A stretch of 64,000 nt of DNA from Zhihengliuella sp. Its GTDB lineage: Bacteria; Actinomycetota; Actinomycetes; Actinomycetales; Micrococcaceae. This document shows, piece by piece, positions 11,065 to 16,526 of the stretch. The notes below the pieces were generated by a model. That model ran no database searches. It was not told where the DNA came from and saw nothing but the letters and a program-made list of their open reading frames with translations. Both the position numbers and the translations under genes were made by a program. The stretch spans positions 1-64,000 of the forward strand of contig NZ_JAPSJL010000010.1 of NCBI RefSeq assembly GCF_031178195.1, written 5' to 3'. Each line of letters starts with the position of its first letter. The first letter of the stretch is position 1.

Positions 11065-11865
11065 TTATTTGACGACCCGAATGGCCGCGGGTCCGAACTG
11101 CGCTCGGATTCGACGCAGGATTTGCCCAGCCTTGGCCTTTTCTTTGGAGCGCTCGGCTTTCGTCAACTGATTGTACCAAATTGGAATCTGTCTCGCCGGG
11201 GCGTCCATCAAGATTTCGGACTTGCGAAACCAGGCGATCCGGTCACTCGTGCGAGCCAAGAAATTCACATCACGCGATAAGAGTACAATCGATCCGCCCC
11301 GCCTGCGGAATCCATGGAGTTTGGACTCTACGCGTTCGTCGCGAAAGGCTTCAGAGATGCTTTCCGCGTCCTCGATGATCAGGAGCCGAATCCCGGTCGC
11401 CAATGCCATGAAAATTTGGCACCGTGCCACGGTCAACGAATCAATATCGTCGACTATCTCGTCAATGACTCCCCCCGCGTGTGCCTCATCAACCACTACG
11501 TCGATCAGCCCACGCAAGGATGCCCCGTTGACTTGGCGCGCTCTCGCAACCCTCTGAAGATTGACTCGAAGACTTTCATCAGCTAGGAACTCGGTGGATG
11601 GGGATAGATTAATGACCTGACCGGACTCATAGATATGACCACTCGAGGGTGACAGCGACCCGCACATGATGTCGGCCACTGTGTTAATACCATCCCTCTT
11701 CGCGCCGAGGATCCCCAGGGTCTCCCCCGACCAGACGACGAGATCGAGCCCGTCAATTTCAATCGCATACTCATTTTTGCCCCGACCATAGGTCTGCGAA
11801 TGACGGATCCCTTGGAGGACCATATTCGCACGCATCTCACCGGCGACGGAACCGCCTTCATTCAT
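11065..11865 (-). CDS. Degenerate ABC-type polysaccharide export ATPase (Wzt/TagH-like)
   Basis: A 266-residue protein that follows the Wzt/TagH ATPase layout along its length, but with the catalytic motifs altered. The Walker A position reads GAKRDGINT (54-62), placing Ile where the ATP-binding Lys belongs. The signature position is DSLTV (142-146) rather than LSGGQ-like. Walker B ends IIEDA, not DE. The switch histidine is Arg (SRD, 197-199). Hydrophobic core segments are preserved, so this is not simple decay. It overlaps the stop of the permease gene by 8 bases, with AGGAG upstream; GTG (11868) and TTG (11871) are alternative starts. It probably cannot hydrolyse ATP alone and may be structural or pair with another ATPase (inference). 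Confidence 0.8.
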   Translation of the reverse strand: MNEGGSVAGEMRANMVLQGIRHSQTYGRGKNEYAIEIDGLDLVVWSGETLGILGAKRDGINTVADIMCGSLSPSSGHIYESGQVINLSPSTEFLADESLRVNLQRVARARQVNGASLRGLIDVVVDEAHAGGVIDEIVDDIDSLTVARCQIFMALATGIRLLIIEDAESISEAFRDERVESKLHGFRRRGGSIVLLSRDVNFLARTSDRIAWFRKSEILMDAPARQIPIWYNQLTKAERSKEKAKAGQILRRIRAQFGPAAIRVVK

Positions 11866-12730
11866 CACCAACGCTCCTATGACTGCTTTCGCCGCGCCAG
11901 ATCAGAACCGTGCCAGCGAGAAGAGGGACTACAGCCCACAAGATCATTATTAGCCACCCCTCGATGGACGGCAATTCGTTGTACACGAAGACTTCACGGA
12001 TATGATTGAGAACCCAAGCCATTGGATTCCAATGGATAATGAAGGCGAATACCGGCCCTAGTTCCGCGAATTTGGCCACCGGGAACATGACGCCGGAGCC
12101 AAACATCCACGCCCTGGTTGATACCCTCAGAATATTGTTGAGGTCGGGGACCCGCGCGATAAAATGTGCTGCGATGAGCGAGATTCCTAGGTTGATACCG
12201 ATTTGTAAGACGATGACCGGAACGACCAGAAACGCGATCGGACTAAGATTCTCGAGAGGCGGCAAAGCAAGGATCATGACAACGAGTACAAGGTAGCTCG
12301 GGAGCCCGGCGATCCACGTCCGGAGATTTTCGTTAATAGGCGCCGCGATAGCAGGGAGCGAGCTTGTGGACGAGGAGGTCCGCCACCGGTAAATCGACAT
12401 CGAGGAGCCGTTGACGCAGCGGGTTGTCATCTGGAAACAGAAAACGCCCACCAATAGGAAGGCAATAAAGTTCGGAATGCCTTTATCCATCTGAAGAATG
12501 AGTCCGAACACAATATAGAATACTGCGCCATCCATGATGGGATTGATGATCAGCCAAAGATTTCCGAGCGCTTGATGCTCTCCGCGACTTGAAACATGCG
12601 TTCTGGCCTCGTGAAACATGAAGCTACGCACATCCCACACACGAAGAATATAGTCTATGAGCGAATCTTTTTCGCCTCGAAGACTTAGATGCCCTACATC
12701 GACTTCCACGGCACGCTCGCTCACTGGCAT
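11858..12730 (-). CDS. ABC-2 type polysaccharide export permease (Wzm/TagG-like)
   Basis: A 290-residue integral membrane protein of the ABC-2 family with about six hydrophobic segments, including one near residue 80 (YIVFGLILQ), others across 160-205, and a final one near 265. An amphipathic N-terminal helix precedes the first transmembrane segment, as in Wzm and TagG. It should form the channel for a lipid-linked polysaccharide and sit with the ATPase-like protein encoded just downstream. The stretch from about 11.1 to 12.7 kb is clearly AT-richer than its surroundings (27 of 60 bases G/C at 12001-12060 by hand count), which suggests horizontal acquisition. Confidence 0.88.
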   Translation of the reverse strand: MPVSERAVEVDVGHLSLRGEKDSLIDYILRVWDVRSFMFHEARTHVSSRGEHQALGNLWLIINPIMDGAVFYIVFGLILQMDKGIPNFIAFLLVGVFCFQMTTRCVNGSSMSIYRWRTSSSTSSLPAIAAPINENLRTWIAGLPSYLVLVVMILALPPLENLSPIAFLVVPVIVLQIGINLGISLIAAHFIARVPDLNNILRVSTRAWMFGSGVMFPVAKFAELGPVFAFIIHWNPMAWVLNHIREVFVYNELPSIEGWLIMILWAVVPLLAGTVLIWRGESSHRSVGDE

Positions 12731-12772: not shown

Positions 12773-14506
12773 TTAGTCATGGGCGAACTTCCCCAATTCC
12801 ATATACTTCTCTATGCACATTCGCGCGTTCCTCTCCCATGTTCGAGACCGAAGTACCATCGAACGTCCAGCGAATCCCATACGCGATCGCGCCTCTCCGT
12901 CTTCAAGCAACCTGTCTATCGCTGCAGCCAGAGCAGACGGGTTCCCGGGAGGTACGAGGGAGCCTGTGACTCCTTCACTGACCATCTCCCGGAGCGCGGG
13001 CAAGTCCGAGGCGACCACGGGTCGACACGATGCCATGGCTTCGACCGGCTTCAGCGGCGTGACTGACCTAGTGACGGCGAAGTCCTTGCGGGGCACCACG
13101 AAAACGTCGAGCGCCTGATGACGGAGGGGTGCCTGGTGAGCCGGAACGCGTCCAGTGAAGATTTCCTCCGGGTCCAGCCCGAGCTCGGCCGCGTGGAGGC
13201 GCAGACTCGGCATGGCTATGCCGTCGCCCACGATCATCAGTTCGACGTCGTCGCGTTCCCGCCGCAGCTCGGCGTACGCACTGATGAGATCATCGAGCCC
13301 CTCGTAGGCGACCAGGGAAGAGACCGTGCCGATATAGAACTTGTCTGGGTCGAGGTGCAGCGCCGTCTTGGCGGCACGGGAGGGTTTCGGGGTCTCGAGG
13401 TACGCGGTGCCGACCGCATTCGGTGATAGCAGCACGCGTGCGGGATCGACCCCGGCCGCGACGATCTTGTTCCTCATGGCGTGTCCCAATGTAAGAACGA
13501 GGTCGGCTGCCGCCATCACCTCCGCTTCGCGGGCATTGAAGTGTCGATAGCGCTCAGATTCCGTCGCCTCCGGTCCTCGCTTCGAAGCCCAAGTGTCGGA
13601 TAGTTGTCCGCGGACCTCGTACACCCACGGGATGCCGACCGCCTCGGCGACCGCCCTCGCGACCAGTCCGTTCACGAAGTGGGTCGTCGTGTGGAGCGCT
13701 GTCGGCCTAAGGTCGAGCACGAGCTTGAGGAGCTTTTCCGTCTCCTCCTGCAGGCGGTCCCGAATGTTGGGTATCGGACCGTCGGAACGGAGGCGGTGGT
13801 ACGTGACGTGTTCGAGTGTCTGTTTGCTGTGGTGTGGCAGGATGCCTAGCGACTCCGGATAGCCGAGCCTGGTGGCTGCGTGGACATGCCAACCGGCAGC
13901 CGCTTGGGCCTTGAGGAGAGAGTGCGAACGCTGCGTATACCCAGTAGTTGTGTAGGGCAGCGAATTCGTCAACAAGTGAAGCACCGTCTGGGCGCGCGGC
14001 TCGTAAGCGTCGACCGTTGGAACTACGGGCACCCAGTCGCCGAACACTTCCTGCTCGGCGAGGTACCGTTCGCGGAGACGAGCGAGACGGCTGTTCCCAG
14101 GATCGAGCCGCGAGATCGCCTGGGTGGTGTTCCCGTTGTAGAAGTCGAGTTTGGCGAGGGTTTGCTCTGTTCCGATCGCGTCGTCCATCCGCTCAGCGAA
14201 TACCTTCGCGAGCTCGGGCTCATGTGCCACGAGCGCGAGGTCAGCGAAGTACTTTGCCTGAGTTCCCCGAGGGCCCTTGGCGAGCGCAGCTTTGAGGCGT
14301 TCGCGCACCGAGTCGGGGTTCTCTCGAAGCAGTGCCGCGGTGGCGGCCATTCGAGTACCAGGTGCGGCCCCCAGAAGCGTGTCAACGGCCGTGAGGACGC
14401 GACGGTGAGAGTTGGTGGCATTCCGACGCCAGAGCCGCAGGATGAATGAAGCCGGATCCTCCTGCCAATGCCGCTTGAGCGTGTGACGGTGCACTAGAAC
14501 ATTCAT
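12773..14506 (-). CDS. GT4 family glycosyltransferase
   Basis: A 577-residue protein. The first 150 residues are helical and repeat-like (TPR-like by appearance), followed by a GT-B glycosyltransferase of family GT4. The transferase shows TTGYTQRSHSLL near residue 190, the mid-linker YEVRGQL, a donor-domain start near FYIGTVSSLVAYEGLDDL, and the E-x7-E region SVTPLKPVEAMASCRPVVASD near 500. It is a retaining sugar transferase likely working on the cytoplasmic side on the same lipid-linked polymer exported by the downstream ABC-2 permease. It begins only 3 bases after the stop of the anchored surface protein and ends 42 bases before the permease gene. Its N-terminal domain resembles the first GT4 module of the giant downstream protein. 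Confidence 0.9.
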   Translation of the reverse strand: MNVLVHRHTLKRHWQEDPASFILRLWRRNATNSHRRVLTAVDTLLGAAPGTRMAATAALLRENPDSVRERLKAALAKGPRGTQAKYFADLALVAHEPELAKVFAERMDDAIGTEQTLAKLDFYNGNTTQAISRLDPGNSRLARLRERYLAEQEVFGDWVPVVPTVDAYEPRAQTVLHLLTNSLPYTTTGYTQRSHSLLKAQAAAGWHVHAATRLGYPESLGILPHHSKQTLEHVTYHRLRSDGPIPNIRDRLQEETEKLLKLVLDLRPTALHTTTHFVNGLVARAVAEAVGIPWVYEVRGQLSDTWASKRGPEATESERYRHFNAREAEVMAAADLVLTLGHAMRNKIVAAGVDPARVLLSPNAVGTAYLETPKPSRAAKTALHLDPDKFYIGTVSSLVAYEGLDDLISAYAELRRERDDVELMIVGDGIAMPSLRLHAAELGLDPEEIFTGRVPAHQAPLRHQALDVFVVPRKDFAVTRSVTPLKPVEAMASCRPVVASDLPALREMVSEGVTGSLVPPGNPSALAAAIDRLLEDGEARSRMGFAGRSMVLRSRTWERNARMCIEKYMELGKFAHD

Positions 14507-14509
14507 CGT

Positions 14510-15424
14510 CTACGGCTTCGCCTTCGTGGTGGGGCGGCGGAAGACTTTCAGGTAGTACAGCACCGCGCCGCCGCCGACAATGATGGCCACGCCCGCGTTA
14601 GCGACCGACTGGAGGGCAGCATCGTTTCCTGTGCGCACCGCGGAGGCGGCTGCCGAGGATTCACTGTCATCCTGCGGTGCGGTAGGGGGCGCCGCCAAGG
14701 CATGCTCGGTCTGGTCCGCAGAACTCATGTGGTCGGCCGATGCTGCCTCCGACGGTGTCTCAGCGGCGCGCGGAGACGCTGGCCCGGACGATGAAGGCGA
14801 TCCCGCCTCAGGGGTTGCGTAGAGGACGCGGCCGGAAAGGAAGCTGTACCTGTAACCGGTGTCCGCCAGCGTACCGGGGGTCAGCATCTGTCCGGTCTCG
14901 GGCACCACCAAATAACCGGTGCGCGGGTGAATGTAGTAGCCCGTGCCTGGATCGACGGCGAGGCGGGTGGTCCCCGCGCGCTGCTGCTCCGATTGGTTCC
15001 CGCCGGCGGATTCCAGCTGGGATCCGGTAGTCGTGCCCGAATTCGTCGCTCCCCGGGTGCTCTGACCAGTCCTCCCGCGCTCTGACGTAACGCCCGTCTG
15101 GGGCTGCGGTTTCGGAGAGCTCGTCGGCGACGGTTCGGCCGAAGCGGCCGATGTCGCGTCCCCGACGGGGTCCGACGACGGCGCGCTGGTCGGGAAGGGG
15201 GGTTCTGGAACAGCGTCGGCCGGGTTCGCGTCCACCTCTACGGCAGGGGTCGGCGGCGTCGGGAGCGGACTAGCCGCGGCGGAGTCCGCTGCCTGCCCCG
15301 CCGCGATGATCCCACCGACCAACAGCACCGACGCGGAGACACGTGCCGGCCACGCCAAGGGCGCCGGGCTCGGCGTGTTCAACCCACGGTCCTTCCCCGA
15401 CCGTGAATGCGGTGCCGTCTTCAT
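14510..15424 (-). CDS. Membrane-anchored Ser/Pro-rich surface protein with TGY-type repeats
   Basis: A 304-residue protein. An N-terminal hydrophobic segment (about 25-45, SASVLLVGGIIAAGQAA) acts as signal or anchor. Residues 50-150 are Ser/Pro/Thr/Glu-rich and probably disordered across the wall. Around 165-215 lie short tandem units built on GTGYYIHPRTGYLVV and PETGQML, which resemble aromatic beta-hairpin repeats. A C-terminal hydrophobic helix (about 275-292) is followed by a basic tail. The ATG at 15424 is one base after the LCP gene's stop, so the pair are coupled. I recognise no named family; the position suggests a partner in displaying or ligating the polymer. ORF starts further upstream lie inside the LCP gene and are less likely. 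Confidence 0.78.
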   Translation of the reverse strand: MKTAPHSRSGKDRGLNTPSPAPLAWPARVSASVLLVGGIIAAGQAADSAAASPLPTPPTPAVEVDANPADAVPEPPFPTSAPSSDPVGDATSAASAEPSPTSSPKPQPQTGVTSERGRTGQSTRGATNSGTTTGSQLESAGGNQSEQQRAGTTRLAVDPGTGYYIHPRTGYLVVPETGQMLTPGTLADTGYRYSFLSGRVLYATPEAGSPSSSGPASPRAAETPSEAASADHMSSADQTEHALAAPPTAPQDDSESSAAASAVRTGNDAALQSVANAGVAIIVGGGAVLYYLKVFRRPTTKAKP

Positions 15425-15425
15425 G

Positions 15426-16475
15426 TCAGTTCTGAAGATTGTTCTCGGCGACATACTGGGACAGGGTGTCGTTCTTGATGGCGTCGGCAACCTCGGCCGT
15501 CGCCGCGGGGTCGTAGATCACGATCGACTGCCCGTCGGCCGAGCGGCCGACTCCTCTGTTGGGAAGCGTGAACGTCGTGATGTCCGAGCTGCGGACGTCA
15601 CGCATACTCACACCCATCTTGGCCAGCGTCATCGAGTCGAGGCTCTGATCCACGGTGACGTACGGGGAGAACTCGCTCACGACGTCGGAGATCTTGCCCG
15701 GATTGGTCAAGGTGTCGGCGTTGAGGAACTCTGACATCACCGCCCTCATGTAGAGCTGCTGATTGGCGACGCGCGTGTAGTCGCCATCCTTGAACTGTTT
15801 CCGTTCGCGGACGAACTTCAAGGCGCTGTCGCCGTCCAGTTCGATGACTCCAGCCGGAAAGTGCTCTCCTGCGGACCCGCCGGACGTGAAGGCCCGCGGA
15901 TTGTTCACCTCGACGCCGCCCAGCGCGTCCGTCAGCGCCTTGAAGCCTTCGAAGTCGATAATGGCGACGTGATCGATGGGCGCCTCCACGAGTCCTTCGA
16001 TCGTCTGCACCAGCAACGGCACTCCGCCGAACGCGAGTGCCGCGTTGATCTTGTGCTCGCCGCGCCCGGGGATCTCGACCCACGTGTCACGCATGATGGA
16101 CATCACGTTCACGGACGAGCGATCGCCGGGGATGTTGACGAGCATCATCGTGTCGGAGCGCCCGCCATTCGGCACATCTGCCAGGTTCTCGGTCTCGCCG
16201 CTGCCCCCGCGGACGTCGGAACCGATGACGAGGAAGTTCACCGCGTCCGAGCTCGCGTCCGGACGCTCCGGCCGTGGCTCATCCGTCGGGAAGACCGATT
16301 CGATGGTCTGTGCCTTCGACTGGAAGCTGTTCATGAGGCTGTAGAGGTAACCGAAGGCGATTCCGCCAGCGATCAGCACGACAGTGAGCAGAGACAGCAC
16401 GACGATGAGTACTGGCCGCTTCTTGCGGCCGGGCCGCCCCTCGTCGAATTCCGACGTCGTGTCCGCCTGGCTCAT
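15426..16475 (-). CDS. LytR-CpsA-Psr (LCP) family wall-polymer ligase
   Basis: A 349-residue membrane protein with a short cytosolic basic N-terminus, one transmembrane helix (about 23-48) and an extracellular LCP domain. LCP hallmarks are FLVIGSDVRGG, RSDTMMLVNI, SIMRDTWVEIPG, KINAALAFGG and ALKFVRERKQF. These hold the acidic and arginine residues that bind the polyprenyl pyrophosphate. LCP enzymes transfer lipid-linked glycopolymers onto peptidoglycan. It is first in the operon that also encodes the surface protein, GTs and exporter, which fits attachment of that operon's product. The ATG at 16475 is chosen at the basic N-terminus with GGGG upstream; an ORF start 51 bases earlier is less likely. 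Confidence 0.92.
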   Translation of the reverse strand: MSQADTTSEFDEGRPGRKKRPVLIVVLSLLTVVLIAGGIAFGYLYSLMNSFQSKAQTIESVFPTDEPRPERPDASSDAVNFLVIGSDVRGGSGETENLADVPNGGRSDTMMLVNIPGDRSSVNVMSIMRDTWVEIPGRGEHKINAALAFGGVPLLVQTIEGLVEAPIDHVAIIDFEGFKALTDALGGVEVNNPRAFTSGGSAGEHFPAGVIELDGDSALKFVRERKQFKDGDYTRVANQQLYMRAVMSEFLNADTLTNPGKISDVVSEFSPYVTVDQSLDSMTLAKMGVSMRDVRSSDITTFTLPNRGVGRSADGQSIVIYDPAATAEVADAIKNDTLSQYVAENNLQN

Positions 16476-16526
16476 ACAACCCCAATCCTCTTCACGGCTC
16501 AACCGAGCGGCTGGACCAAATAGCAA

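Follow-up and report, generated by a model that had tools for sequence, protein, structure and literature searches.

How is a polysaccharide exporter to be understood when the ATPase encoded beside its permease has lost every motif of the ATP site? The question is raised by two genes, here called wzm2 and wzt2, in a 64,000-nucleotide stretch of DNA from Zhihengliuella sp. (the window; contig NZ_JAPSJL010000010.1 of assembly GCF_031178195.1). ATP-driven motion is the defining trait of ABC exporters, and even degenerate members, as far as the accounts cited below describe them, retain one composite site that works. A conserved exporter with a fully lost ATP site is thus a test case for whether a polysaccharide channel needs ATP cycling at all. 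The original prediction, made from the sequence of the window, held that the ATPase had lost its catalytic motifs while its gene stayed in frame and its fold well kept, and that export would then require either an intact ATPase encoded elsewhere as heterodimer partner or a different source of energy.

Results

The gene cluster around wzm2 and wzt2 appears to make a cell-wall sugar polymer (Table 1). From its likelier ATG start wzt2 overlaps wzm2 by 8 nt, and its stop is followed after 23 nt by the ATG of the giant glycosyltransferase gene, which has GGAGG in front of it, so that an open reading frame sits in a tight operon position. The giant glycosyltransferase carries Pfam GT1/GT4-type stretches at residues 253-622, a Glyco_trans_1_2 match at 864-981 and a further stretch with three of these five Pfam families, and with these domains probably synthesizes a polymer in several steps. 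Between the LytR-CpsA-Psr and GT577 genes (14510-15490, minus strand) lies the gene of a 326-aa Ala/Ser/Pro-rich protein with a C-terminal hydrophobic stretch, perhaps surface-exposed, for which a Pfam search at E 0.001 returned no match.

Table 1. Features of the wzm2-wzt2 locus, in coordinates of the window
Feature	Coordinates	Strand	Remarks
Giant glycosyltransferase, 1477 aa	6608..11041	-	Downstream neighbour of wzt2; Pfam domains
wzt2, Wzt/TagH-fold pseudo-ATPase, 268 aa	11065..11871	-	Mechanical start TTG 11871; ATG 11865 likelier
Former switch SHS/SHD, now SRD, residues 199-201	11269..11277	-	Alignment
Former Walker B LLIIEDAE, residues 163-170	11362..11385	-	Alignment
Former signature YSSGM, now IDSLT, residues 143-147	11431..11445	-	Alignment
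Former Walker A GAKRDGINT, residues 56-64	11680..11706	-	Lys to Ile; Ser60 to Asp (Asp in 8/8 orthologues)
wzm2, ABC-2 (Wzm/TarG-type) permease, 290 aa	11858..12730	-	Keeps Leu-Gly motif, Trp59 and Asp196
Wzm2 TM2-TM3 loop, residues 119-130	12341..12376	-	Place of the TarG coupling helix; FxFPRxxL of live Wzm replaced
GT577, GT4-type glycosyltransferase	12773..14506	-	Upstream neighbour of wzm2; Pfam
LytR-CpsA-Psr family glycopolymer transferase	15426..16526	-	Upstream, same direction; Pfam

Family models barely recognize Wzt2, with Pfam ABC_tran giving only 18 bits (cut-off 25) and NCBIfam TagH matching at E 7.7e-10, yet with 38.6 bits where 320 are required. An AF2 model built from four sequences (pLDDT 80.7, pTM 0.80) nevertheless found its best solved matches among Wzt and TagH/TarH chains, with 7k2t_A at the top (Z 23.7, rmsd 2.8 over 231 aligned residues, 20% identity), and the dead-ATPase profile A1 matched 6amx at E 5.2e-28. 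As modelled, Wzt2 keeps a Wzt-type ABC nucleotide-binding fold.

In a sample of 395 family genomes the profiles of this ATPase (346-406 bits, next best 143) and of its permease (452-482 bits, next best 316) detected the same eight, which we call the dead-pair genomes. They belong to three genera (G000-G004 of genus g1, G021 of g18, G030 and G057 of g27) and include 5/5 genomes of the window's genus, and wzt2 adjoins a Wzm/TarG-type permease gene in all eight loci. Three of these loci are in records named Zhihengliuella salsuginis, Kocuria polaris MS50-16 and Micrococcaceae bacterium RIT 802. The record titled Kocuria polaris MS50-16 (L118, MLDA01000012.1) holds the gene cluster of G002, a genome of the window's genus, and its species label may be wrong. 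In an order sample searched at E 1e-38 the ATPase profile hit 4/396 genomes, all Micrococcaceae, and in a class sample at E 1e-45 it hit 1/286, the window's own genome, with none outside the family in either; both samples overlap the family sample, and since each of these searches scored 6-8 candidates per genome, weaker relatives could be missed. A stage before the loss, with a Wzm2-like permease beside a live Wzt2, was not seen in these searches, and both profiles show a gap (346 to 143 bits for Wzt, 452 to 316 for Wzm).

Read again in the window, the altered motifs are those originally noticed (GAKRDGINT, IDSLTV, LLIIEDAE and SRD), and the match to solved Wzt agrees with the earlier impression of a well-kept fold. 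We aligned the eight dead Wzt2 chains with 19 live Wzt chains and found that the loss of the Walker A Lys and of the YSSGM-type signature is common to the whole group, each being present in 0/8. The P-loop Ser60 has become Asp in 8/8 and the signature Ser144 has become Asp or Glu in 8/8, whereas the Walker B Glu is left in two chains (G004 and G021) and the switch His in one (G004), neither residue being present in the window's gene. The G004 orthologue (L034 9602-10435, minus strand) is the least degraded, with VIDEAE at Walker B and SHE at the switch. At the A-loop column Tyr or Phe stands in 0/8 dead chains versus 17/17 live rows covering the column, a result that depends on the alignment, with dead rows G000 and G003 carrying a Tyr slightly downstream. 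More broadly, 69 columns reach a conservation of 94% or more in live Wzt; of these, 15 are retained by seven or eight of the dead chains and 34 by one or none. The loop at residues 90-101 is changed relative to live Wzt; residues such as Asp60-Gly61 and Leu101 are invariant within the dead group. That G004 retains Walker B and switch residues without Walker A or signature suggests that these latter two were lost first. As a control, Walker A and signature were found in one frame in 44/44 other Wzt loci (the best other matches, 22 + 22 from two profile searches, excluding the dead locus L013; 40 distinct genes, four of them counted twice), and a sequencing error is unlikely because the Walker A Lys and signature are missing in eight separate genomes and present in all of these others. 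We infer from the motifs that Wzt2 has lost the ability to bind or hydrolyse ATP canonically, residual or non-canonical nucleotide binding being possible.

Is the gene simply decaying? Its evolution is fast, its motifs are gone and pN/pS is high in distant pairs, all of which would suit a pseudogene. We used pN/pS, with no proper dN/dS, because synonymous sites are saturated; pS is saturated even in the four closest pairs (0.69-0.78), for which pN/pS is 0.35, 0.36, 0.36 and 0.38 in Wzt2 and 0.28, 0.30, 0.30 and 0.24 in Wzm2. The other 17 of the 21 Wzt2 pairs (a set excluding G021) range from 0.62 to 0.85, including six with the window's gene at 0.64-0.82, near saturation. By this measure the four closest wzt2 pairs are under purifying selection, the window's own copy being too saturated to judge. 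In trees of both proteins the dead clade stands apart from all live rows with support of 100/100, and branch lengths within it sum to about 12.1 for Wzt2 and about 5.1 for Wzm2, that is, Wzt2 evolves about 2.4 times faster; the trees are midpoint-rooted, have long branches and do not show whether dead or live clades branched off first. The faster evolution of Wzt2 fits relaxed constraint, and the dead ATPase family appears, from these comparisons, to be under selection, with weaker constraint than on Wzm2. The frame is without internal stops in 8/8 genomes of three genera, which bears out the view that the gene is in frame and apparently maintained and is the opposite of what its absence or frameshifting in all relatives would have meant. 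Together with the pN/pS of the closest pairs, the residues invariant within the dead group and a fold predicted with fair confidence, this leaves next to no credence for a decaying pseudogene or a sequencing artefact. We rejected both on the open frames, the common motif losses and the pN/pS of the closest pairs.

Upstream of wzt2, Wzm2 is a real ABC-2/Wzm-type permease. Pfam places an ABC-2 membrane domain in it at E 3.7e-8, TarG ranks first in a search with its profile (E 3.2e-19), and its model, of pLDDT only 63.4, matches TarG 9cfl_A best (Z 22.4). Leu55, Gly56 and Asp196 are present in 8/8 dead-pair genomes and, judged by motif and spacing, Leu55-Gly56, Trp59 and Asp196 likely correspond to Leu23-Gly, Trp27 and Asp167 of Aquifex aeolicus Wzm, which have been placed at the polysaccharide entry (PMC6379404). 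Among 47 conserved live-Wzm columns, 27 are kept in Wzm2 by at least seven of the eight chains and nine by at most one. Four of these nine lost positions (123, 125, 127 and 130) fall within the loop that joins model helices 88-118 and 129-155, or at its end. In TarG the coupling helix of the TM2-TM3 loop is described as docking into a groove of the ATPase (PMC7078476), and in TarGH an ATPase loop is reported near the coupling helix (PMC11971408). By alignment, therefore, the coupling site is altered on both sides, at these four Wzm2 positions and in Wzt2 loop 90-101.

The original prediction allowed for an intact Wzt encoded elsewhere in the genome, and such a chain is indeed present in all eight dead-pair genomes. 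A live-Wzt profile gave one strong match per genome (Wzt1, 400-529 bits, next best 108), its query alignment holding six of these eight chains and leaving G002 and G003 outside. All motifs of Wzt1 are intact in 8/8. It does not, however, have the standing of an unpaired partner, since in 8/8 it adjoins its own permease Wzm1, and a genome search for an intact Wzt/TagH without its own permease yielded only this one strong match, always beside its permease. Each of the eight genomes also has a second-tier match at about 95-108 bits; in the two genomes inspected it is an ABC-2 ATPase of another kind (LSGGM, DEPTTGLD), accompanied by permeases of its own. An obligate heterodimer of Wzt2 with an unpaired intact Wzt was accordingly rejected as the leading idea, the sole strong Wzt match having a permease of its own.

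A related possibility is that both pairs join in one asymmetric transporter, with Wzt1 giving ATP binding to Wzm2-Wzt2. The presence of Wzm1-Wzt1 in every dead-pair genome would allow it, and there are well-known examples of asymmetric ABC exporters in which one site is dead (PMC7756269, PMC8421411). An ABC ATP site is formed where two chains meet, the second chain giving the signature (PMC7756269), and because Wzt2 has lost both Walker A and signature, no heterodimer with an intact chain would restore a canonical composite site, which disfavours an obligate heterodimer. In Pdr5, described as among the most degenerate, losses are split between the halves and one site works (PMC7756269, PMC8421411), whereas Wzt1 keeps all its motifs and hence offers no complementary loss. 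Evolutionary distances point the same way. Across the eight dead-pair genomes, with sampled label permutations, distance matrices correlate at r 0.93 within the dead pair and 0.95 within the live pair, but between the pairs at only 0.12 (Wzt2-Wzt1) and 0.18 (Wzm2-Wzm1), values reached by 17-22% of permutations; G000 and G001 are 93% identical in Wzt1 and only 35% in Wzt2. The missing correlation, as far as sequence distances can tell, speaks against an obligate heteromer, and we consider a mixed transporter decidedly unlikely. As a separate observation, G001 and G004 share 49% in Wzt1 and 61% in Wzt2, and because Wzt1 and Wzt2 identities disagree between genome pairs, the live Wzm1-Wzt1 locus seems to have been exchanged among species on its own, apart from the dead-pair locus (L038 of G001 and L045 of G000, compared with L031 and the window).

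Wzt1 homodimers might instead drive Wzm2 directly, similar to MsmK, with Wzt2 as an accessory. Importers with shared ATPases exist (PMC4519317), and Wzt1 is the sole other strong Wzt match in these genomes. Against this, the Wzm2 TM2-TM3 loop has no conserved FxFPRxxL at the place where a helix is reported to dock the ATPase in TarGH (PMC7078476), and there would be no explanation for why Wzt2 has been conserved next to Wzm2, so that a shared motor seems very improbable.

What the dead pair keeps constant is its company: the order GT577, Wzm2, Wzt2, giant glycosyltransferase is found in 8/8 genomes. Distances of Wzt2 correlate with those of the flanking glycosyltransferases at r 0.87-0.91, and those of Wzm2/Wzt2 with GT577/giant glycosyltransferase at r 0.75-0.91, correlations that linkage and vertical descent alone could give. 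Matches to the giant glycosyltransferase above 1,100 bits occur in 53/395 family genomes, all eight dead-pair genomes included (G003, G351, G364 and G365 covering the profile partly). We examined 20 of the 45 such loci from genomes without the dead pair, and in 10/20 GT577 is immediately followed by a live Wzm-Wzt pair in the same orientation; these ten loci have an extra glycosyltransferase-like stretch ahead of the giant glycosyltransferase. In seven more the stretch showed neither GT577 nor an exporter gene, L100 ending at a contig end, and in the remaining three (L114-L116) the exporter is at the edge or undetected, with other genes filling the slot in the two inspected. Where the loci can be compared (10/20), gene order thus puts the dead pair in a position that belongs to a live pair in other genera.

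In those ten loci the position after GT577 implies that a live pair serves related glycosyltransferases, and together with the lost motor of Wzm2-Wzt2 this raises the alternative that the live pair exports the GT577/giant-glycosyltransferase polymer and that Wzm2-Wzt2 acts solely as a membrane scaffold or as a regulator of its synthesis. A pure scaffold, however, would not need the 27 of 47 conserved Wzm columns that Wzm2 keeps, likely polysaccharide-entry residues included. Moreover, live-pair distances follow GT577 and the giant glycosyltransferase unclearly (r 0.21-0.31; 7-15% of permutations give values as high). A role entirely outside transport is in our judgement unlikely.

Discussion

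Taken together, the loss of the ATP-site motifs, conservation across genera, gene order and the missing correlation with the live pair lead us to favour a maintained pseudo-ATPase, Wzt2, that would form with Wzm2 a separate homomeric complex for the flanking glycosyltransferases and serve it as a structural subunit, a reading to which we give about an even chance. It is favoured because no canonical site would arise either in a Wzt2 homodimer or with Wzt1, and because Wzm-Wzt without nucleotide is described as forming a continuous channel (PMC6379404, PMC9445017). Wzt2 would then be a nucleotide-binding domain that has observably lost its motifs and presumably with them its canonical use of ATP, and gene order and shared evolution suggest that the homomeric complex is dedicated to GT577 and the giant glycosyltransferase. 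Wzt2 would most likely hold Wzm2 in a state like that of the nucleotide-free, channel-forming Wzm-Wzt and dock the cytoplasmic enzymes of synthesis, and glycan passage at the complex, if any, would be ATP-independent, for example pushed by chain synthesis; alternatively, the complex might merely organise synthesis while the separate live Wzm1-Wzt1 exports. The strongest form, in which Wzm2-Wzt2 is a working homomeric, ATP-free conduit through which the neighbouring multi-domain glycosyltransferase drives the glycan by synthesizing it, is tentative and unlikely. ATP hydrolysis is reported to energise Wzm-Wzt translocation (PMC9445017, PMC6379404), which counts against an ATP-free reading.

Preserved across three actinobacterial genera despite its lost ATP site, the pair makes ATP-free export testable. 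It is a test case for whether synthesis alone can move a polymer, and under the homomeric reading it would illustrate a route from motor subunit to scaffold. In the open-access literature, searched largely by title and abstract, we found no Wzt-type exporter described as lacking every motif, and by its sequence the dead pair would be an apparently unreported variant, an exporter of the Wzm-Wzt type with a pseudo-ATPase.

Among known systems, the Wzm-Wzt O-antigen exporter of A. aeolicus (PDB 6OIH, 6M96, 7K2T) similarly pairs a permease gene with an ATPase gene; Wzt is the best match of the Wzt2 model, and the Leu-Gly, Trp and Asp residues have equivalents in Wzm2. However, the window's Wzt2 has lost all ATP-site motifs and, at 268 aa, is too short for the C-terminal carbohydrate-binding domain. 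The TarGH/TagGH wall teichoic acid flippase is the best match of the Wzm2 profile and model and shares its Gram-positive setting, with a LytR-CpsA-Psr gene nearby, but the Walker A, YSSGM and His201 described for TarH (PMC11971408) are all absent from the window's Wzt2, and the Wzm2 coupling loop is altered. Similar to the asymmetric ABC exporters Pdr5, TM287/288 and TmrAB, a conserved exporter here contains a degenerate ABC ATP site; those exporters, as described, keep one active composite site, whereas the Wzt2 chain has lost both halves, and we found neither an intact composite site with losses split between chains nor a complementary partner. Finally, the MsmK-type shared ATPases of sugar importers would allow for a permease without a working motor of its own, although Wzm2, unlike these permeases, keeps a dedicated dead ATPase alongside.
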